Part shown: piece after piece, positions 5,872 through 23,003 of the stretch
Layout of the letters: every line of letters starts with the position of its first letter
How positions within the stretch are numbered: position 1 is the first letter of the stretch
Source of the DNA: a virus
Strand: one strand, 5' to 3'
IMG/VR virus record: IMGVR_UViG_3300030389_004123
Span: 1 to 36,825 of that record
DNA length: 36,825 bases
Program-made: the position numbers and the translations under genes
The notes under the pieces: model-generated
What the model was told of the DNA's origin: nothing
The model's input: the letters and a program-made list of their open reading frames with translations, nothing else
Databases searched by the model: none

Positions 5872-6755
5872 ACAAACTCATCACCATACCAACTACACCA
5901 AACTTTATAGACAGTCAGTTCAGTTTACTAAGGGCGGTTGGAGTAACGGCTTCTCCATTTAGCGGAGTACAGCGCACTCAAGAATTTGACTTGGTTAGCT
6001 GGGAAGGAACGGCAACGCTACCGCCTATGAATCGTGATACAGCGGTGAACTGGCAGTCATTTCTACTGGAGTGCGTAGGTTCAAAAAACCACTTTCATTT
6101 TATTGATCCAGACGCGAAATCTCCGCAAGGCACATATGACCAAGACTACCTAACTGGGGATGTTAGGTTGGCCACGAATAATGCATCCCGAACATTATCA
6201 TTTACCACGGATTCAAAAATAACTAGCACCAGTGCTGTGTTCGCAAATCTGGTGGCGGGTGATTTCGTTACTATATCCGGCGCTAACAAACCAGAAAATA
6301 ATGGCACTTTTAAGATCACTACCTTTACATCATCCACAGACATCACGGTTGATGCCTCATTTATCGCGGAAAGCGGTACAGCAAACTGCACAGTGAGCCA
6401 AAATATCAAAGGTTCAGAGGCATTATCACTAGCTGCAAAAACCAACACGGGAACAGGGACTATAAAAAAAGGCGATTATCTAGCTATATATGATGGGGCG
6501 GCGGAGACATCAAACAGGATACAACTTGTAATGGCTACTGCTGACGCTACAGAGACATCTCAAAGCGGATCGCCTAACCACTACAGCGTAGCAATCCAGC
6601 CCAAGCTGCGGAGTGATCTGACAGACACCCATATCGTTGGGTTTAAATCCACGCACAATCAATCACGATTCAGGCTCGCAGATAATTTAATAACGTGGAA
6701 CGCTGATCGCGTATCTCTATACGGTATAACGGTAGCATTCACTGAGGTCATCTAA
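5868..6755 (+). CDS. Distal tail protein
   Basis: The 295-residue protein starts with GTG overlapping the tape-measure stop. Residues 25-90 have the pattern SPFSGVQRTQEFDLVSWEG, LPPMNRDTAVNWQSFLLE and FIDPDAKSPQGTYD. This is typical of distal tail proteins encoded directly after the tape measure. Residues about 120-180 form a Thr/Ser/Asn-rich beta insert (GDFVTISGANKPENNGTF) not needed for the fold and seen as a loose domain in other marine phage tail proteins. It should form the hub ring at the tail end. It is not a clear DUF2460 member, although it holds that position in gene-transfer-agent order. Confidence 0.8.
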   Translation: MNKLITIPTTPNFIDSQFSLLRAVGVTASPFSGVQRTQEFDLVSWEGTATLPPMNRDTAVNWQSFLLECVGSKNHFHFIDPDAKSPQGTYDQDYLTGDVRLATNNASRTLSFTTDSKITSTSAVFANLVAGDFVTISGANKPENNGTFKITTFTSSTDITVDASFIAESGTANCTVSQNIKGSEALSLAAKTNTGTGTIKKGDYLAIYDGAAETSNRIQLVMATADATETSQSGSPNHYSVAIQPKLRSDLTDTHIVGFKSTHNQSRFRLADNLITWNADRVSLYGITVAFTEVI

Positions 6756-7411
6756 TGGCTAGTAGAGCTGGGATTGACACAAAGACTGCGCTGCGTCTAG
6801 CGCAGGATCACCAAGAAATTAAGTTTGCGATAAAAGCAGAGTTTGATACAGACACTGTGCGGCTGCATACGGGTGGCGGGACGCTTACGATAAATAGTGA
6901 AAACTATGAAGGCGCTGGCACATTGCTGGCAATATCAGAGATTGAGGACACAAAAGAGTTAAAAAGTTCAGGAGTGACCTTTCAGCTTTCAGGTATGGAT
7001 TCTACTGTATTAGGGTTTGCTCTTAGTGAAAATTACCAAAACAGACCTATAACTCTATTCATGGCCTTCACATCCGGAGGCACTAATAATGTTGATGGCT
7101 TTTTGACGCTATACAGCGGACGCATGACGCAAGCAGACATAACAGATACATCAGAGGGAGCTACCATCACGCTCAATACTGAAAACAGACTTATTGATTT
7201 AAGCAGACCATGCAACCTGAGATACACAAATGAGAGCCAAGAGCATTTGTTTGCTGGAGACACCTCATTAAATCAAATACACAAGGTTACTCAAATGCAA
7301 ATATTCTGGGGACGCTCTGGACAAGGTGGAGGTGGGTCATCTATAGCGGGAATGCAAGGTGGTGCTAGTGGCTCAAATATAGATGATTTTGATTTGTCCT
7401 CAGAAAAATAG
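6755..7411 (+). CDS. Tail hub protein
   Basis: This 218-residue protein overlaps the distal tail gene (TAATG). It is beta-rich in the middle, and its second half carries GFLTLYSGRMTQADI, LNTENRLIDLSRPC and RYTNESQEHLFAGDTSL. This pattern is typical of hub proteins that precede an NlpC/P60-type gene and a J-like protein. The C terminus is Gly/Ser-rich and probably flexible. It takes the place of the DUF2163 protein of gene transfer agents, but is shorter, so membership of that family is uncertain. Confidence 0.78.
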   Translation: MASRAGIDTKTALRLAQDHQEIKFAIKAEFDTDTVRLHTGGGTLTINSENYEGAGTLLAISEIEDTKELKSSGVTFQLSGMDSTVLGFALSENYQNRPITLFMAFTSGGTNNVDGFLTLYSGRMTQADITDTSEGATITLNTENRLIDLSRPCNLRYTNESQEHLFAGDTSLNQIHKVTQMQIFWGRSGQGGGGSSIAGMQGGASGSNIDDFDLSSEK

Positions 7412-7412
7412 C

Positions 7413-7823
7413 ATGAAAAAGCTAGCGGATTGGAGAATCAATTTAAGATTATTTTTCGCTATGCACAAAGACTATCCCTTCACATGGGGCAGTTGGGACT
7501 GCTGTAAGTTTGCTGACGGCGCAATCGTTGCGATGACTGGACAGTCAATCATACCGGAAAGTTTCCAATGGCATGATAAAAAATCAGCAATAAAGATCAT
7601 AAAAGAAAATGGCGGAAATTTGACAGAGTGCGTCAAATATTTGGCGTTAAAGGCTGGCATGAAGCATACCAGAACCATACAGCTAGGCGATCTAGTATGC
7701 TACAAGCAAAAAACAGCCGCCGTTGGAATATGTGATGGGTTTGGGATAAGAGCGCCATCAGACGAGGGCGTGGCTATAGTCAGCAAAAATTATGCGACAG
7801 AGGTTTTCCGTATAGATGGCTAA
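7413..7823 (+). CDS. Tail-tip cysteine peptidase-like protein (DUF6950 type)
   Basis: This 136-residue protein has the family pattern PFTWGSWDCCKFADGAIVAMTG, where the first or second Cys is the expected nucleophile, and later IQLGDLVCYKQ and AVGICDGFGIRAP. Related proteins resemble NlpC/P60 papain-like peptidases and sit between the hub and the J-like protein. They may cut peptidoglycan during entry or help assembly. I chose the ATG at 7413, just after the preceding stop, because an upstream in-frame ATG lies inside the hub gene. Confidence 0.8.
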   Translation: MKKLADWRINLRLFFAMHKDYPFTWGSWDCCKFADGAIVAMTGQSIIPESFQWHDKKSAIKIIKENGGNLTECVKYLALKAGMKHTRTIQLGDLVCYKQKTAAVGICDGFGIRAPSDEGVAIVSKNYATEVFRIDG

Positions 7824-10800
7824 GGCAATAAAAACAGCGATCATCGCGGCGGCAGTCACGTTCGTGACCATCTACACTGGTGGTCAAATACTTGGCGCTC
7901 TTAAAATTGGTACAGGCGCGGTGGCATTTACTGCCACGCAAGCCTTACAGTACGCAGTGATTACAGCAGTTGGAACCTTAGTGGCTTCCGGTGTTGGTTT
8001 GCTCAGTAGCAAAGGAGTAAATGCTACGAGAGGTAACTTTGGCACTAAGCTCACTGTCAGATCAGCGCAAGCACCGAGACAAATAATATATGGAAAAGCA
8101 AGGGTAGGTGGTGTTGTCGCTAAAATGGAAACAAGCGACATACCAAATAATGAGCCTAATACAACCTTACACATGGCTATCGTAGTCGCGGGCCATGAGA
8201 TACAAGGGTTTGAAAAGATTTATCTCAATGACGTTTTGCTGACATATACCGCTGGGACAGCTAGCGGCGAAACTGTATATACCGTAACCAATTCAGAGTT
8301 CACTAACACGGATAATCAGAATTTTGGTAGCGGTAGATTAGTAAGGTTCACTTTCCATGACGGCAGTCAAACAGCAGTAGACGGCTTAGCTCAGGCATCT
8401 CTTGGCAGCACTAAGTACCCTAACACCGCAAAATTTCAGGGTATGGCTTATTTTTACTTTGAGATGATTTACGACCCAGAAAAAAACGGCCAGATGCCAG
8501 CCTTATGGTTTGAGCTAAAAGGTAAAAAAGTGTTTGACCCCCGCAGCAACAGCACCGCATGGTCAGATAATCCAGCATTAATTATTAGAGACTTCCTCAC
8601 GGATACGACATACGGACTTAAAGCTACAACCAGTGAAATAAATGACGGCGCTAATAATGATGTGGGCAGCTTTTATGAGGCCGCTGATATTTGTGACGAG
8701 ACAGTATCTATACCTACAGGAAACAGCACGACATACACAGTCACGGTTGTTTCTACAGGCTCCGGTAATAAATACGCAATAGACGGAACCCAACAGCCCA
8801 CTCTCTCGCTAACGGAGGGTAATACCTACACGTTTGACCAGAGTGACAGCAGCAACTCCAATCATCCTCTGCGCTTCTCTTCAACCTCTAACGGCACACA
8901 TGGCGGTGGCTCTGAGTACACCACAGGGGTCACAACCAATGGAACAGCGGGTAGCTCAGGTGCATATACAAGGATCACGGTGGCTGTGGGCGCTCCGACT
9001 TTGTATTACTACTGCACAAACCACAGCGCGATGGGCGGAACGGCAAACACGCCATCAGGTTCAACGGAAAAACGCTACACGGCAAACGGCTTCACTAATA
9101 TGTCAGCTTCAGGTGACGGCGTTTTGGAGGGCTTGCTGTCAGCTTGTGCGGGGTCAATTACATACACTAACGGCAAATTTAATTTATTCGTGGGCGGCGA
9201 TCAGACGCCGAGCCTGACTATCACAGATGATGACATTCTAAGTGAGGTGGCTGTATCTACAAAGTCTAGCGGTGGAGAACTTTATAATACGGTAAAAAGC
9301 ATTTTCGTGGACGGCAGTGATAAATATGAAACTATGGAGGCTCCTGTCTACTCAAACGCTACCTATCTTGCGGAAGATACGCCTTCAGGAGAAAGCTCCG
9401 CAAACTATAAAAATATATTGGAGCTGCAATTTCCGTTTACTGTCTCTCAGACTATGGCGCAGCGACTTGGGTCAATAGTTTTAGACAGGCAGAGGAAAAC
9501 TACGACTGTATCTTTTTTAACCACTTTAGAATATATGCGGCTGCAACCTAATGATTGGGTTCAAGTAACGAATGAAAGAATGTCTTTCAGTTCTAAGGTG
9601 TTTGAAGTCATATCCACGAACTTAGAGTTTATGGAGGAAGGCGAGTCCGTTTTTGCGGCAACTCGGTTGACGCTTCAAGAAATTGACACAACTGTATATG
9701 ACTATGCCGCAAGTGATTATGTAGATTTCGCTGCTGATGGGGCAGCTACGGTAGGTGGCAGTCTAGCCATATCAGCGCCTACTAATTTGACCCTGTCGCA
9801 AGTAAACGGGCAGGAGGGAGCGACAGCCAAGATATCCGTAAAAGTTTCGTGGACAAACGCATCAGATGACGCGATACAAGGAACAGAGATATCGTACCGA
9901 CTTGGCACCGAAACTGACTCTGATTACAAAACCGCCGCTATGTCAGGCAGGGGGATTAGCACCGCCACATTTGCTGGCGCAATCGTGGGGACTCAATATT
10001 ATGTCCGTATTAGACATTTTGCTTTTGATAATGTTGTTTCTGGTTACACTTCTGCTGCAAACATTACTATTGCTGAACCTGACACTATCTCAGCCCCTAC
10101 CTCCGTATCCGCGACCACGGGCAAACAGGGGTTCATTGACATCGCCTTTACCGCCCCAGCGGTAGACAGTGTTACTAAGGTAAACATACATTTCAGCACT
10201 TCTAGCGGCTTCACGCCCGCTTCCGGCAATTTACTAACCTCAGTAGCAGTGACCAAGGGCGCAGTGATAAAGCACCCTGTAGGGCTTGTGAACGGCCTAG
10301 CATACGGCACGACCTACTACTTCAAGCTCACAGCAGAAAACTCATACGGCACAGTCTCCAGCGCATCCAGTGAGGTGAATGGCAGCTTCACGCAAGTCAC
10401 AACTTCTGACATTGTGGACGGCGCTCTAAGCGTGGCGAAGTTTGCCAGCAGCATTGAGCCTGTCAGTCTTGTCACCAGCGTCCCCTCTAGCAAAAGCACA
10501 GAGACCGTCTTTAACACCAGCACCAACACGCTGCTCCGATGGAACGGCTCGGCGTATGTGTCAGCACAAGGCGCATCTAATTTCAGTGAGCTTTCCGGCA
10601 CGATCACCAGTACACAGATCACAGACAGCGCCGTTACATCTGCCAAGATCGCATCAAATGCAGTCACAGCGGCCAAGATAGCTGCGGGAACCATCACCGC
10701 AAACGAAATAGCATCTAACACTATTACAGCGGGAGTTATTCAGGCGGGGGCGATTGGTGCGACAGAAATAGCAGCGAACGCACTTTCCATCGCGAAGCTC

Positions 10801-15829: not shown

Positions 15830-16720
15830 TCATGCGGCCTTATCGGCAGCATCAGTATTCTCCTTAGCTAGACTCATCAGGTAGTCAAAAGCCTTTTGAG
15901 CCGCGCTGAAGGCGTGGGTCATGGCTTTCTCGTTGTCTCTGATAGCCTCTAGCCATCCGTTTATGTACTGAGCGTGATCGGCTCTCACAGTTTTCTCAAT
16001 CCCAAGCTCGGCACAAAGCATAGCAGACCCAATCTCAGCTATTAGCTCTTCTTGAGCGTATAAAGCCCGACTAAGATCGCGATCTAATCTTTTAGGATTA
16101 GCCGTCCAATGAGTGAGTTCGTGACCCTTAGTAGAGTAGTAGTCAACGTCAGAGTGGAAGTCACTCTTATTTGGTAGGAATATCTGATCGGTAGAGGGTT
16201 GATAGTATGCCTCATCTCCACCATGGTTGATAACAGCGCCTGTGGCTTGGAAAAACGCGTCAATCTCTAGCGTCTCAGCCTCGGTAAGCTCCGTCTTAGC
16301 CTCGTGATCAGCGATCTCTGGAGTGTAGTTCTCTATCTGCTCGGCGTTGTATACATTATATCTCGCCCAACACCAGTAAGTCGGCAGTTTACCACTAGCT
16401 CTATATTTAGCCTTTTCCTCCGGAGTCAGCCATGACTCCTTTTTTTCTTTGACTTGTGAGAAAAATATATTGGTATATTGCTTACGCTGATCCTTTTTGA
16501 CCTTATAGCCCTTGTCTGTCCACTGCTTCCAAGTCCCCCATTCATGGGAATCATAGCCTTGAACGGCCAGCCAGAAGTAATTTAAGCCCCGATATGGCTT
16601 TTTTGAAAGGTAGTTTGCTGGACGAGAAGAGCCGACCCAAGACTTTGTCCAGTTGGCTCCCTCTGTCTCTATTAGCTGTATAAGTTTAGCTTGAACTCTA
16701 GCGAAAGTATTTGCGCTCAT
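15830..16720 (-). CDS. ardC: ArdC-type antirestriction protein
   Basis: The 296-residue protein has the two-domain layout of ArdC. The N-terminal ssDNA-binding domain (1-130) includes NYLSKKPYRGLNYFWLA and FSQV. The C-terminal zincin-like domain has HELTH at residues 200-204 and EELIAEIG at 224-231, giving two zinc His ligands and a Glu. ArdC proteins protect incoming DNA from restriction. The ATG at 16720 was chosen because TAGGAGT lies upstream in the shared leader. It is likely among the first genes expressed and lies two genes from the recombination genes. Confidence 0.85.
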   Translation of the reverse strand: MSANTFARVQAKLIQLIETEGANWTKSWVGSSRPANYLSKKPYRGLNYFWLAVQGYDSHEWGTWKQWTDKGYKVKKDQRKQYTNIFFSQVKEKKESWLTPEEKAKYRASGKLPTYWCWARYNVYNAEQIENYTPEIADHEAKTELTEAETLEIDAFFQATGAVINHGGDEAYYQPSTDQIFLPNKSDFHSDVDYYSTKGHELTHWTANPKRLDRDLSRALYAQEELIAEIGSAMLCAELGIEKTVRADHAQYINGWLEAIRDNEKAMTHAFSAAQKAFDYLMSLAKENTDAADKAA

Positions 16721-16766
16721 CAAAGTGACTCCTATCAATTTAAGTGTTTATCAAAATTACGAGCAT

Positions 16767-19133: not shown

Positions 19134-19352
19134 ATGCGCTTAAAAACCTACCTGACAAGCCGATCCAAAACCCAATCCTCTTTCATTAAAGAGGTTTATC
19201 AAAAAACTGGGCATAGATTACCCCAAGGCACACTTGCCAAGTATCTGATTGGTCAACGCATCCCCAGAAAAAAAGAGATGCTCATCATCCATGACGTGAC
19301 CGAGGGCGCTGTAGAGCCGAATGATTTTTATTTTGGAGGAGAAGATGACTGA
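19134..19352 (+). CDS. Cro-like (YdaS-type) helix-turn-helix regulator
   Basis: The 72-residue protein reads as a small HTH: LKTYLTSRSKTQSSFIKEVYQ, then GHRLPQGTLAKYLIGQRIPRKKEMLIIHDVTEGAVEPNDFY, a typical Cro/YdaS layout where the second and third helices contact DNA. It starts next to the palindrome CCCGTAACGGG and diverges from the leftward recombination operon. No ribosome site is seen before the ATG, so translation may be weak or leaderless. It precedes the base-modification genes and overlaps the next one by eight bases. Confidence 0.8.
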   Translation: MRLKTYLTSRSKTQSSFIKEVYQKTGHRLPQGTLAKYLIGQRIPRKKEMLIIHDVTEGAVEPNDFYFGGEDD

Positions 19353-19995
19353 TTTCAGCGTCCAGATGATGGACATCACAGAGGTAAAGGAGTATCAAAA
19401 TAATCCGCGTCAGAATAATGTGGCCATACAAAAAGTGGTGGAAAGCATTCACAACATAGGGTGGCGAGTCCCCATCGTCGTTGATGAGGATAACGTCATA
19501 CTGGCGGGACACACACGACTGAAAGCAGCTCAAGCGATGAACCTTACGAAAGTCCCTGTTCATGTAGCGCTGGATGAAAAAGGTCAGCCACTTAGCGATC
19601 AGCAGAAAAGGGCATATAGAATAATGGATAACAAAAGCTCAGAAGCAGCGAGCTGGGATGCCAAGCTCCTCGCTGAAGAGTTTGCCGTGTTAGCAGACGG
19701 TGGCTTTGACCTGATCGGCACTGGTTTTGACGCTGACGAGATAGAAAAAATCACTAAGTCTCTTATGAAATTTGACGCTGACGAGCCATCCATGGAGCTA
19801 GACAGTAGTGACTTCAGCGCGTTTGATGACTTGCAGACGAGCAACGTCAGGATGGTTAATCTATTTCTCAATCAAGATAATGAGGAATATTTCAAAGAAA
19901 TGTGCGCGGCGCTGGGAGAGAATCTCGGTACGGCTAATATGACCGAAACAGTATTCCAAGTAATAGAAAAGGCTTATGGCGAGATCACAAGATGA
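19345..19995 (+). CDS. ParB/Srx-like nuclease-fold domain protein without methyltransferase
   Basis: The 216-residue protein starts at an ATG preceded by GGAGGAG. Residues about 5-75 form a ParB N-terminal domain: NNPRQNN, a helix ending SIHNIGW, PIVVDEDNVILAGHTRLKAA and KVPVHV. Residues 80-130 have AYRIMDNKSSEAASWDAKLLAEE, the linker usually found between this domain and a DNA methyltransferase domain. The methyltransferase is absent: the protein ends after about 80 more residues of unclear fold. It is the first gene of the modification cassette (ATGA overlap with the TET/JBP gene), so it may bind or target DNA for modification. Confidence 0.85.
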   Translation: MTDFSVQMMDITEVKEYQNNPRQNNVAIQKVVESIHNIGWRVPIVVDEDNVILAGHTRLKAAQAMNLTKVPVHVALDEKGQPLSDQQKRAYRIMDNKSSEAASWDAKLLAEEFAVLADGGFDLIGTGFDADEIEKITKSLMKFDADEPSMELDSSDFSAFDDLQTSNVRMVNLFLNQDNEEYFKEMCAALGENLGTANMTETVFQVIEKAYGEITR

Positions 19996-20906
19996 GTCGC
20001 AGATACGATCTGAAGCCAGCGTATAGCTTTGATGAGGCTAAAGAAACAGCGGGCCAAATGGTCAGTGAGTCAGACTTTGACATCTTGATAAACACAGATT
20101 GTGACGCTTATGATGAGCTTGGTAATCCATTGTTTTTCTTTAGAAAAGGCGCGATTGATAAGAGGCTTTGTGCAGCAGCGTACCCAGCATTGAGAAGTGC
20201 AGCAACGCCTACGAGTAATCGTGGGATGGCGGGTGGAATCATCAATGAAGAGACCAAGTCAGAGTTTCAAGGCGTTCACGAAAAAACACGCCTGAGAATC
20301 ATAAAAAAAGATGGCACTCTGAGTAATACGACCAGAGCAAATAGCGTAAACTCTGGCATCGTAGGCTACTTTGATCGCACAGCAAGATTCCCATATTGCC
20401 GTCAAACAGCGTGGTATGAGAAAAATTTTAATCAGTTTAAGACAGCCTATCCCTACATTAAGAGGATATCAGACCTTTTTTCAGAGGCGTGTCCGGAGAA
20501 ATACAGCGCACAGAGGGCAATATCAGATCAGACCCACCCTGATTTCATGATTAAAGACACTGTGTTCACAACGATCACGGTAAATAAAAATTTTCGCACA
20601 GCACTTCACACAGACGCCGGAGACTATCAAGGCGGTCTAGGCAATCTCGCAGTCCTGCAAGCAGGAAAATACACTGGTGGTTACACGGTCATACCTCGGT
20701 ATCGCTGTGCATTTGACGTCAGGACAGGGGATGTCTGTTTCTTCAACGTCCATGAGTATCATGCGAACACCGAAATACATGCGCAGCTAGCTTATGAGCG
20801 TATCAGTATTGTCTGTTACTACCGAGAGCACATGCATGCATGCCTTTCAGCAGAAGCAGAGTTAAAGCGCGTCCAGAATAGGAAGCTAGGTGATAAGCTG
20901 CAATGA
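19992..20906 (+). CDS. TET/JBP-like 2-oxoglutarate Fe(II) dioxygenase acting on DNA bases
   Basis: The 304-residue protein has the TET/JBP core at about 195-280: NKNFRTALHTDAGDYQGG with His206 and Asp208 as iron ligands, then GGYTVIPRY, RTGDVCFFNVHEYHANTEI with the second iron His (most likely His257, alternatively His254), and YERISIVCYYRE with Arg270 as the expected 2-oxoglutarate contact. The family oxidises the 5-methyl group of thymine or 5-methylcytosine in DNA. Here it precedes a transferase and kinase that use hydroxymethyl bases, so it probably makes 5-hydroxymethyluracil. A 5-methylcytosine substrate is the alternative. Overlaps are ATGA at both ends. Confidence 0.88.
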   Translation: MSRRYDLKPAYSFDEAKETAGQMVSESDFDILINTDCDAYDELGNPLFFFRKGAIDKRLCAAAYPALRSAATPTSNRGMAGGIINEETKSEFQGVHEKTRLRIIKKDGTLSNTTRANSVNSGIVGYFDRTARFPYCRQTAWYEKNFNQFKTAYPYIKRISDLFSEACPEKYSAQRAISDQTHPDFMIKDTVFTTITVNKNFRTALHTDAGDYQGGLGNLAVLQAGKYTGGYTVIPRYRCAFDVRTGDVCFFNVHEYHANTEIHAQLAYERISIVCYYREHMHACLSAEAELKRVQNRKLGDKLQ

Positions 20907-21685
20907 ACTTCGTGCAGTTCAGTAAGGTGTTGATAGAAAGCGGTGATCTTGACCCTGATTATATTTTTATCAATAGAGCATGTGAGGCTCTTGATTGGGA
21001 CAGGGAGCGAAAGGCGCAATGGATCGCGGCTAAAAGTGTCATCTATAACAGCATTGGAGAGCTAGAATTTCTGATCCACGGAAGACATTTCAGTCTACTA
21101 GATTACGGCTCAGAAAGGCGAAAGCATAAGCCAAATGCAGAGCTTTTCTGGCATGCCTTGTACAGCAATGCACAGTCTCATGGTGGGTTTTACCGCATGT
21201 TTAGTAAGGTTCATCATGATGCGAATGTTGCGCTCAAACAGCTGCAGAAGTTTCAAGGCGTTGGGCCGTGGGCGGCATGGAAGATACTAGACCTATTAAA
21301 TTGCTGTCTTGGATTTAATTTTGACTTTGAGCGTGTAGATTTCCGGCTGGCCTATGAATATCCGATAAGAGGCATGCTCCTAGTCGCTGGGGAGAATGAA
21401 GAGCTTCATCGGAGGGTTACTGACGGTCTGTACTCGGAGTCTATGGAGGAGGTCTACGATCAACTACGCGATGCTAAATTACTGCAATCTTTAGCGCCTC
21501 CCGAATATGAGCGCAAAATCAACATGCAAGAGATAGAAACATGCCTGTGTAAATATCACAGCTACTACCACGGTCATTACAAGGCTGGGGAGGATATAGC
21601 TGACCTTCATAAGTGCATAGACAAAACGGAATATTCTGATATTAAGGAGTTAAAGCCATGCCTGCCGAAACTCTTAACATTGTAG
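20903..21685 (+). CDS. Amino-acid:DNA transferase (alpha-glutamyl/putrescinyl thymine pyrophosphorylase family)
   Basis: The 260-residue protein has a helix-hairpin-helix of the DNA-glycosylase type (QGVGPWAAWKILDLL, residues 118-132) and a C-terminal block CLCKYHSYYHGHYKAGEDI near 214-232. Both are typical of the transferases that replace the phosphate of a phosphorylated hydroxymethyl base in phage DNA with an amino acid or amine. It thus should act after the kinase of the same operon. Its amino-acid donor cannot be read from the sequence. It overlaps the TET/JBP gene by ATGA and the FAD gene by 28 bases. Confidence 0.85.
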   Translation: MNFVQFSKVLIESGDLDPDYIFINRACEALDWDRERKAQWIAAKSVIYNSIGELEFLIHGRHFSLLDYGSERRKHKPNAELFWHALYSNAQSHGGFYRMFSKVHHDANVALKQLQKFQGVGPWAAWKILDLLNCCLGFNFDFERVDFRLAYEYPIRGMLLVAGENEELHRRVTDGLYSESMEEVYDQLRDAKLLQSLAPPEYERKINMQEIETCLCKYHSYYHGHYKAGEDIADLHKCIDKTEYSDIKELKPCLPKLLTL

Positions 21686-22479
21686 GGGCTGGCTTAGCGG
21701 GTAGCTTTGTTGAGCGGATTGCTGCTAAAAACAAGATAAAAACTAGAATATTTGATGAAAGAAACTCCTATGCCGCTTCACCGTATAGTGAAAATATCTT
21801 TAGTTTTGGATGGGCTGATCGGTTAGGGCATGAGATCGCGGAGGTAAGTAAACGAGTTCTGAAGGACACAGTTCAGGTAGATGAGGTGTATTTTCGTAAC
21901 AAGAACCTGATTAAGTCCTATCGTGTTCAACCAAAAAATATTCTTGTAGATCACATTAAGGATAGCGTGACGGCTGTCTCTGATGAGGGCGTTCAGACCC
22001 AAAATAATGGGTTTCAGCAAGGCGCTACCATCGTTTGTGCTGGCGCGTTCTGCAACGAGCTAGTCCCTGTTCCCAGCCTCAACTCACTCTCCGGCCATGG
22101 CTTATTGTTCAATGGTACTTGGAAAAAAGAACCGATGATGCTTATGCCTATCCCCCATAAACATTTTAAGGTCTTTCAGTTTGATGAGGACAGAATATGG
22201 TTCGGCGACAGTGTCGCGATAAAACATCAAAATTACGTCAAAAATCAGGAAACATACATTAATAAGAGCCTGAACAGGGCTAGAGAATATTTCGGTCTCA
22301 TTAATCCTGCTGAGATAGTGTTCGGCATGAGACCTTATGTTGGCGTCAATGCGCACAATCCCAAAATGGGTCACTTAGAAAGGATCAGTAGGAGAGTATG
22401 GGTAATGACAGGTGGCTGGAAGATGGGCCTAATGATTTATCCGTATCTCGCTGAAAAGTTTATACGAGAGTACGCATGA
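21658..22479 (+). CDS. FAD-dependent amine oxidase/lyase-like enzyme (DAO family)
   Basis: The 273-residue protein opens with the dinucleotide-binding motif GAGLAG (residues 10-15), then a strand ending IFDER. It has ATIVCAGAFCNELVP in the middle and GGWKMGLMIYPYLAEKF at the end, the usual FAD-contact block of glycine oxidase-like enzymes. It is about 100 residues shorter than most of these, so part of the substrate domain is reduced. In known thymidine-hypermodification clusters, flavin enzymes trim the amino acid attached to DNA. Here it could turn a glycyl adduct into an aminomethyl group. The ATG follows AAGGAG. Confidence 0.82.
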   Translation: MPAETLNIVGAGLAGSFVERIAAKNKIKTRIFDERNSYAASPYSENIFSFGWADRLGHEIAEVSKRVLKDTVQVDEVYFRNKNLIKSYRVQPKNILVDHIKDSVTAVSDEGVQTQNNGFQQGATIVCAGAFCNELVPVPSLNSLSGHGLLFNGTWKKEPMMLMPIPHKHFKVFQFDEDRIWFGDSVAIKHQNYVKNQETYINKSLNRAREYFGLINPAEIVFGMRPYVGVNAHNPKMGHLERISRRVWVMTGGWKMGLMIYPYLAEKFIREYA

Positions 22480-23003
22480 AAGCGATAGCAATCGGTGGTG
22501 TGCCAGCAACAGGGAAAACGACACTCGTCAAAGCTATGCTTAATATTCTGAAACCTAACCAAAAGTTAAAATACGGGCTACTACGAGGCCTAGTAAAAGA
22601 TGATACCGCTGTGCTTGGGGTCTATGAAAATGGTGAAACCTTCTCAGGAACTGACCGATTGTCCATGGCCGTTCAGACACACTATGATTCTTATATAAAC
22701 AGGCAGCTCACGAATGTTGTTTTTGAAGGTGATAGGCTCTTCACAGCCAATAACCTCATCAGTCTTTTGGAAACTTTTGATACTAAGATAGTAATTCTTG
22801 AAGCTGACCCTCAAACACTTTCTGAGAGACATAAATCAAGGGGTGATACCCAGACAGAAGTATTTTTAAGAGGCAGGGAGACGAAAATTAACAATATTAA
22901 GTTAAACCCTAAGATTCAAAAAAATTTTGAAACATACGTTTTGCGGACTGAGGATAAAACAATAGCATTAGCCGCTGAACTTATATCATGGCTTGGTCAT
23001 TGA
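22476..23003 (+). CDS. P-loop 5-hydroxymethyluracil DNA kinase
   Basis: The 175-residue protein has a Walker A motif GGVPATGKT at residues 7-15, then FSGTDRLSM and VVFEGDRLF, which match phage kinases that phosphorylate the hydroxymethyl group of the base in DNA. The phosphate is the leaving group for the amino-acid:DNA transferase. The gene overlaps the FAD gene by ATGA and ends the cassette. Its 3' end overlaps the RusA-like gene on the other strand by seven bases. No terminator is visible between them. Confidence 0.85.
   Translation: MKAIAIGGVPATGKTTLVKAMLNILKPNQKLKYGLLRGLVKDDTAVLGVYENGETFSGTDRLSMAVQTHYDSYINRQLTNVVFEGDRLFTANNLISLLETFDTKIVILEADPQTLSERHKSRGDTQTEVFLRGRETKINNIKLNPKIQKNFETYVLRTEDKTIALAAELISWLGH

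Follow-up and report, generated by a model that had tools for sequence, protein, structure and literature searches.

A TET/JBP-containing five-gene cassette in an uncultured tailed virus and its probable role in post-replicative thymine hypermodification

The IMG/VR virus record IMGVR_UViG_3300030389_004123 was analyzed as one stretch of DNA of 36,825 bases with 47% G+C, which is the entire record and is referred to here as the window. Judging from its genes, it comes from an uncultured tailed virus, and at positions 19345-23003 it carries a compact cassette of five open frames on the + strand. The cassette probably encodes a pathway of post-replicative thymine hypermodification, a reading that can be given a probability of about 0.7. 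The first gene (19345-19995) encodes a ParB-like protein of 216 amino acids with the ParB-CTPase fold (PF02195, 2.8e-6; phrog_620, 1.5e-44). It is followed by genes for a TET/JBP dioxygenase of 304 amino acids (19992-20906; PF12851, 3.2e-25), an amino acid:DNA transferase (ADDT) of 260 amino acids (20903-21685; PF18724, 2.5e-11), a flavin adenine dinucleotide (FAD) enzyme of 273 amino acids with the DAO fold (21658-22479; PF01266, 1.2e-10), and a small P-loop kinase of 175 amino acids (22476-23003), recognized as a kinase by homology to gp4 of phage Kozie and by its predicted fold and predicted to act on hydroxymethyl bases in DNA. All five genes start with ATG; the list of open reading frames begins the ParB frame at an upstream ATG at 19321, and the gene start was taken as 19345. 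Three junctions are four-base ATGA overlaps, and the ADDT and FAD genes overlap by 28 bases. The head-to-tail cassette had been described in an initial annotation of the window, with which the coordinates and the overlaps agree. The five gene identities proposed there also held, with each protein matching its family or a homologue of that family. Four of the five proteins exceed the curated Pfam cut-offs, namely those of the ParB_N, Tet_JBP, ADDT, and DAO profiles.

The dioxygenase (TET) scores 88.7 bits against PF12851, for which the cut-off is 34.9. The initial annotation had made its prediction depend on an HxD..H iron site, and the pattern HxD..H..R is present: all 39 aligned sequences have H206, D208, H254, and R270. 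By this conservation, H206, D208, and H254 are assigned as the iron site, and Arg270 is the probable 2-oxoglutarate residue. In a fold comparison, the AlphaFold2 model of the protein (predicted local distance difference test, pLDDT, 93) was closest to TET2 (Z 21.2, root-mean-square deviation 3.3, 257 aligned), with NgTET1 (Z 19.3), CMD1 (19.0), and CcTet (17.7) among the other neighbours. Beyond the TET-family entries, the list drops to AlkB-type proteins at Z 13.7 downwards. The alignment had no credible PDB relative by sequence, and such relatives were found by the fold comparison alone. A close search of viral contigs with this TET gave no match; a profile search did find relatives, which are encoded on at least 588 stretches. 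If the thymine reading is true, this suggests that base modification by TET enzymes is common among uncultured viruses.

The ADDT and the FAD enzyme bear on the fate of the base after its predicted oxidation. The ADDT scores 44.2 bits against PF18724 (cut-off 26.2), and the best solved relatives of its profile are 25qc, an ADDT-domain protein (1.7e-21), and 8z2m, named “Glycinyltransferase” (2.9e-13). The FAD enzyme has the Rossmann motif GAGLAG, and its best solved relatives are two entries named “Flavin-dependent lyase”, 8z2o (2.9e-13) and 8z79 (5.9e-13). Where they align, 8z2m and 8z2o match the translated gp46 and gp47 of phage PaMx11, respectively. By homology, the window ADDT is probably a glycinyltransferase and the FAD enzyme probably a flavin-dependent lyase. 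The “trimmed product” of the initial annotation is retained as an endpoint on the same grounds and, going by PaMx11 gp46/gp47, would be named more exactly as 5-aminomethyl-deoxyuridine. A pathway that acts on thymine and ends elsewhere, by adding a different amino acid or by using the flavin enzyme to oxidise the adduct instead of cleaving it, is a less likely alternative. Identity to the PaMx11 enzymes is just 22% (ADDT and gp46) and 24% (FAD enzyme and gp47), and ADDTs of the other half of the family tree are found together with genes for a glutamine amidotransferase and a GNAT protein, which suggests variable end products. However, the match to the solved lyase 8z2o spans residues 6-270, nearly the whole length of the FAD protein, and FAD genes were detected only alongside the ADDT half to which both the window and gp46 belong (11 of 16 rows vs. 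0 of 15 in the other half). The split between these halves has support of 100/100 on a midpoint-rooted tree in which several long branches were flagged.

The kinase falls below every Pfam cut-off (AAA_18, 1.1e-5; Ploopntkinase3, PF18751, 0.0034 and 17.4 bits vs. a cut-off of 27). It is 31% identical over 154 columns to Kozie gp4, which is a clear Ploopntkinase3 (PF18751) protein (4e-18, 66.1 bits). Its P-loop residues, together with E84-G85-D86-R87, R118, and R122, are invariant in 31 sequences. The AlphaFold2 model (pLDDT 95) has the fold of a P-loop kinase, and its neighbours are many P-loop kinases, including phosphoseryl-tRNA kinase, with no single one singled out; that no phage 5-hydroxymethyluracil kinase is among the listed neighbours is uninformative by itself. 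The profile of the M6/PaMx11-type 5-hydroxymethyluracil DNA kinase, HMUDK_hel (PF18723), has no match in the window record. The kinase of the initial annotation can thus be kept as a P-loop kinase, and not as an enzyme of the M6/PaMx11 type. Its homology does not establish specificity for hydroxymethyluracil; the family also occurs beside TETs that are linked to C5-methyltransferases.

Other loci were gathered with the TET, ADDT, or FAD families as bait. Their counts are descriptive, since they include repeats of one record, near-identical contigs, and some loci cut by contig ends. The gene order that the initial annotation had proposed to look for in viral metagenomes does recur: ParB, TET, ADDT, FAD, and kinase follow one another in L002, L003, L094, L098, and L102, with one additional gene between TET and ADDT in L002. 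Two more loci (L004 and L005) have the same set and order without a full ParB. Because the set recurs in the same order in these loci, the linkage of the five genes appears to be more than chance. The cassette proteins of L002 and L004 are 37–79% identical to those of the window. This retention, the open and overlapping frames, and the invariant catalytic residues of the TET and the kinase make it very improbable that the cassette is decayed or unused and the virus DNA unmodified, a view that could be taken of a metagenomic contig known from sequence alone.

Across the 92 loci with a TET of the window type, ParB is present at 83, the kinase at 53, the ADDT at 48, and the FAD gene at 13. In the nearest relatives of the window TET on the tree (L027, L028, and L032), the ADDT-FAD pair is replaced by a glutamine amidotransferase, a GNAT-like gene, and a different ADDT. 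The interval from TET to kinase holds a glutamine amidotransferase (PF13522/PF13537) and a GNAT-like gene at L028:6482-8692, L030:6921-9921, and L085:6885-8744. The ADDTs of these three loci belong to the other half of the tree, and L030 only has an amidoligase-like gene as well (E 0.011, below cut-off). From their gene content, they apparently encode a second, uncharacterised tailoring route. One reading of the arrangement is that tailoring genes of different kinds are exchanged next to a ParB-TET(-kinase) core. Two further loci are arranged differently. In L006 (HTVC112P), positions 6360-8582 hold ParB, a TET 53% identical to that of the window, and then an FkbM-family methyltransferase; neither ADDT nor kinase was found at this locus. 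L178, a contig from a Candidatus Parcubacteria assembly, has ParB, ADDT, FAD, kinase, and TET in a different order, and it may belong to a virus or provirus whose host is a member of the Parcubacteria.

The ParB-like protein scores 27.7 bits against PF02195 (cut-off 26.3). Its NPR, GxxR, and DN positions, including G55 and R58, are invariant in 44 homologues, and GxxR corresponds to the P motif with its conserved arginine. In a survey of the ParB-CTPase fold, this arginine is required for nucleotide binding, the nucleotide bound is CTP, ATP, or GTP, and phage forms are often fused to DNA methyltransferases (PMC12704722). The ParB-like protein of the window probably binds DNA in a nucleotide-dependent manner as a partner of the dioxygenase, which it would load or direct. 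A canonical role in partition was set aside because the gene recurs beside TET; no search for ParA was made.

The substrate of the TET can be approached through the genes that accompany it. A C5-methyltransferase (PF00145) is absent from the window, G001, G002, G003, Kozie, and HTVC112P. Among 12 records it was found in phage Melnitz only, with Tonitrus and LittleMunchkin outside this search, and 1 of 44 further whole records had a partial match. The thymidylate-synthase-type profile of dUMP-hydroxymethylases (PF00303) is absent from the window, G001, G002, G003, Kozie, Tonitrus, and LittleMunchkin and from all 44 whole records; it is present in PaMx11, Pam3, and Sonora and strongly matched in Cr30 (373 bits). 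HMUDK_hel is over its cut-off in PaMx11, Pam3, and Sonora only, and no TET was found in these three phages. A TET is present in the window, G001, G002, Kozie, Tonitrus, LittleMunchkin, and Cr30. By these profiles, the TET route and the synthase/HMUDK_hel route to a hydroxymethyl base appear to be largely mutually exclusive. The large phage Cr30, with both TET and a synthase match, is a possible exception; given the strength of the match, its synthase may be an ordinary thymidylate synthase.

Melnitz, a Methylophilales phage, represents a second type of TET locus, which was gathered using the Melnitz TET. A C5-methyltransferase is present in 66 of the 71 Melnitz-type loci vs. 0 of the 92 window-type loci, as detected with a profile of a single sequence that distant methyltransferases could escape. 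L185, an Actinomadura rayongensis contig that is not among the tree rows, is an exception in which a C5-methyltransferase, ParB, and TET lie close together. ParB and ADDT are both absent from the 71 Melnitz-type loci, and the Melnitz-type TETs form one clade (100/100) on a branch of 3.18, apart from the window. Because of the pattern of absent methyltransferase, synthase, and HMUDK_hel, the contrast with the Melnitz type, and the separate TET clades, thymine is likelier than 5-methylcytosine as the substrate of the window TET. On the opposite assumption, a host or unseen phage methyltransferase would supply 5-methylcytosine, the TET would convert it to 5-hydroxymethylcytosine, and the kinase and ADDT would yield an amino-modified cytosine. 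This is unlikely when the methyltransferase is missing from the window and G001–G003 and nearly so from the other records and loci, when ADDT occurs in none of the methyltransferase-type loci, and when the TETs fall into two clearly distinct groups, even though the fold neighbours of the window TET are 5-methylcytosine enzymes (the list held no solved JBP dioxygenase) and the small kinase family adjoins a C5-methyltransferase and TET in Melnitz-type viruses (27 of 71 loci). In addition, ADDT relatives of known chemistry act on thymine-derived bases.

According to the thymine pathway, some thymines of the virus DNA would be converted, following DNA copying. The TET/JBP enzyme would act on thymine within the phage DNA and oxidise its methyl group, giving 5-hydroxymethyluracil, and the small kinase would phosphorylate the hydroxymethyl group. 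The ADDT would then exchange the phosphate for glycine, forming N-alpha-glycinyl-thymidine, and the flavin enzyme would cleave this adduct to 5-aminomethyl-deoxyuridine. Protection against host restriction is the likely purpose. No candidate frame for a replicative DNA polymerase was noticed in the window, where frames of at least 500 amino acids were assigned other functions, and this argues against modification via the nucleotide pool. It can be put forward tentatively that the virus encodes the complete route from thymine in DNA to a base with an aminomethyl group and that a nucleotide switch of the ParB type picks the sites of the dioxygenase. The TET-first route of the initial annotation keeps its order of steps, and context favours thymine over 5-methylcytosine.

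Several points weigh against this pathway. Its chemistry is deduced at every step, from gene identities, the iron site, two folds, linkage, and the exclusion pattern. The phage TET that Burke et al. reportedly studied by experiment in 2021 acts on cytosine, and 5-methylcytosine could come from a host methyltransferase. The kinase is shared with C5-methyltransferase-linked TETs, so a uracil-specific reading may be doubtful. With only 22–24% identity to the PaMx11 enzymes, the ADDT and the FAD enzyme could use another amino acid and yield another product. The loci are redundant and were baited with cassette proteins, so the counts are not independent. Moreover, no terminal repeat was found in the window, and the completeness of the genome is thus unproven.

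The cassette is flanked on both sides by leftward genes. A small gene with a weak HTH_3 (helix-turn-helix) match (19134-19352, +; E 0.12) is co-oriented with it and shares 8 bases with the start of the ParB gene; it may head the operon or regulate it. Scans for promoters gave no more than shuffled sequence did, and sites resembling terminators were approximately 1 standard deviation above shuffle. The window also encodes a terminase, portal, capsid, head-tail connector, tape measure, and tail proteins, and from this content it would be a tailed-phage genome, presumably near complete, that opens in the head region. An ArdC-like protein (15830-16738, −; PF08401 and PF18818) is a possible second anti-restriction function of the virus. 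A class 3 lipase match (136-807, +; PF01764, 4.9e-17) adjoins the head-tail connector gene.

A TET-first route and cassettes of this kind are said to have been predicted by Iyer et al. in 2013, and the initial annotation rightly credited that prediction; it missed two later published annotations. In Gordonia phage CaiB (2022), ParB, TET/JBP, pyrophosphorylase, and kinase genes were annotated as a modification cassette with reference to Iyer et al. 2013 (PMC9302106), and in Rhodococcus phage Tonitrus (2025) a “five-gene thymine hypermodification system” was described with reference to Lee et al. 2018/2022 (PMC11955845). The kind of cassette is therefore not new, as CaiB and Tonitrus were published with the same interpretation. 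A literature search, which missed the main biochemical papers, found no experimental demonstration of TET-first thymine hypermodification, and one may exist. What is new is the evidence that separates thymine from 5-methylcytosine as the substrate, the reading that the tailoring module next to the ParB-TET(-kinase) core is swapped, and, by homology, TET-ADDT-FAD-kinase in the order of the window in the cultured Microbacterium phage Kozie. If the thymine pathway is true, it would be a second way to PaMx11-like hypermodifications that requires neither a polymerase nor a nucleotide pool made by the phage, and it would reveal a viral enzyme that acts on thymine in the manner of JBP. Such a route could suit small viruses whose replication depends on the host.

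Genes 1-5 of CaiB and other DR-cluster phages resemble the window in their ParB-like protein, TET/JBP, pyrophosphorylase (ADDT/aGPT family), and small kinase. They form a single run with 4-base overlaps, for which evasion of restriction was proposed (PMC9302106). Unlike the window cassette, they sit before the terminase, and similarity is low. CaiB is known here from its publication, and genes 1-5 of LittleMunchkin served as the Gordonia example for sequence comparison; the fifth gene of LittleMunchkin has no Pfam match. Tonitrus shares ParB, a Tet-like J-binding protein, aGPT-Pplase2, and a kinase with the window but has the kinase before the fifth gene, a fifth protein called “hypothetical”, and extra small frames between genes. 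In neither Tonitrus nor LittleMunchkin is the fifth gene equated with the FAD lyase of the window. The thymidine hypermodification genes gp46-gp51 of PaMx11 include a homologous and adjacent ADDT (gp46) and FAD enzyme (gp47). In contrast to the window, PaMx11 has a thymidylate-synthase-type gene, taken as the source of 5-hydroxymethyluracil in the nucleotide pool, an acetyltransferase (gp48), an HMUDK_hel protein (gp50), and no TET. The Melnitz type (HhaI-like methyltransferase, TET, and kinase) shares a TET and the same small kinase family with the window but differs in its adjacent C5-methyltransferase, the lack of ParB and ADDT, and its separate TET clade; its gene set is likely a cytosine route. 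Kozie (Mementomorivirus) is a cultured phage whose genes 1-4, annotated in its record as hypothetical proteins, encode TET, ADDT, FAD, and kinase in the same order as the window. Base modification is not mentioned among the term matches from a Microbacterium phage paper that deals with the related MementoMori cluster. Unlike the window, Kozie has no ParB gene that could be found in the cassette, and its TET is under the Pfam cut-off (25 bits). Kozie and its relatives supply a cultured test case for the pathway.

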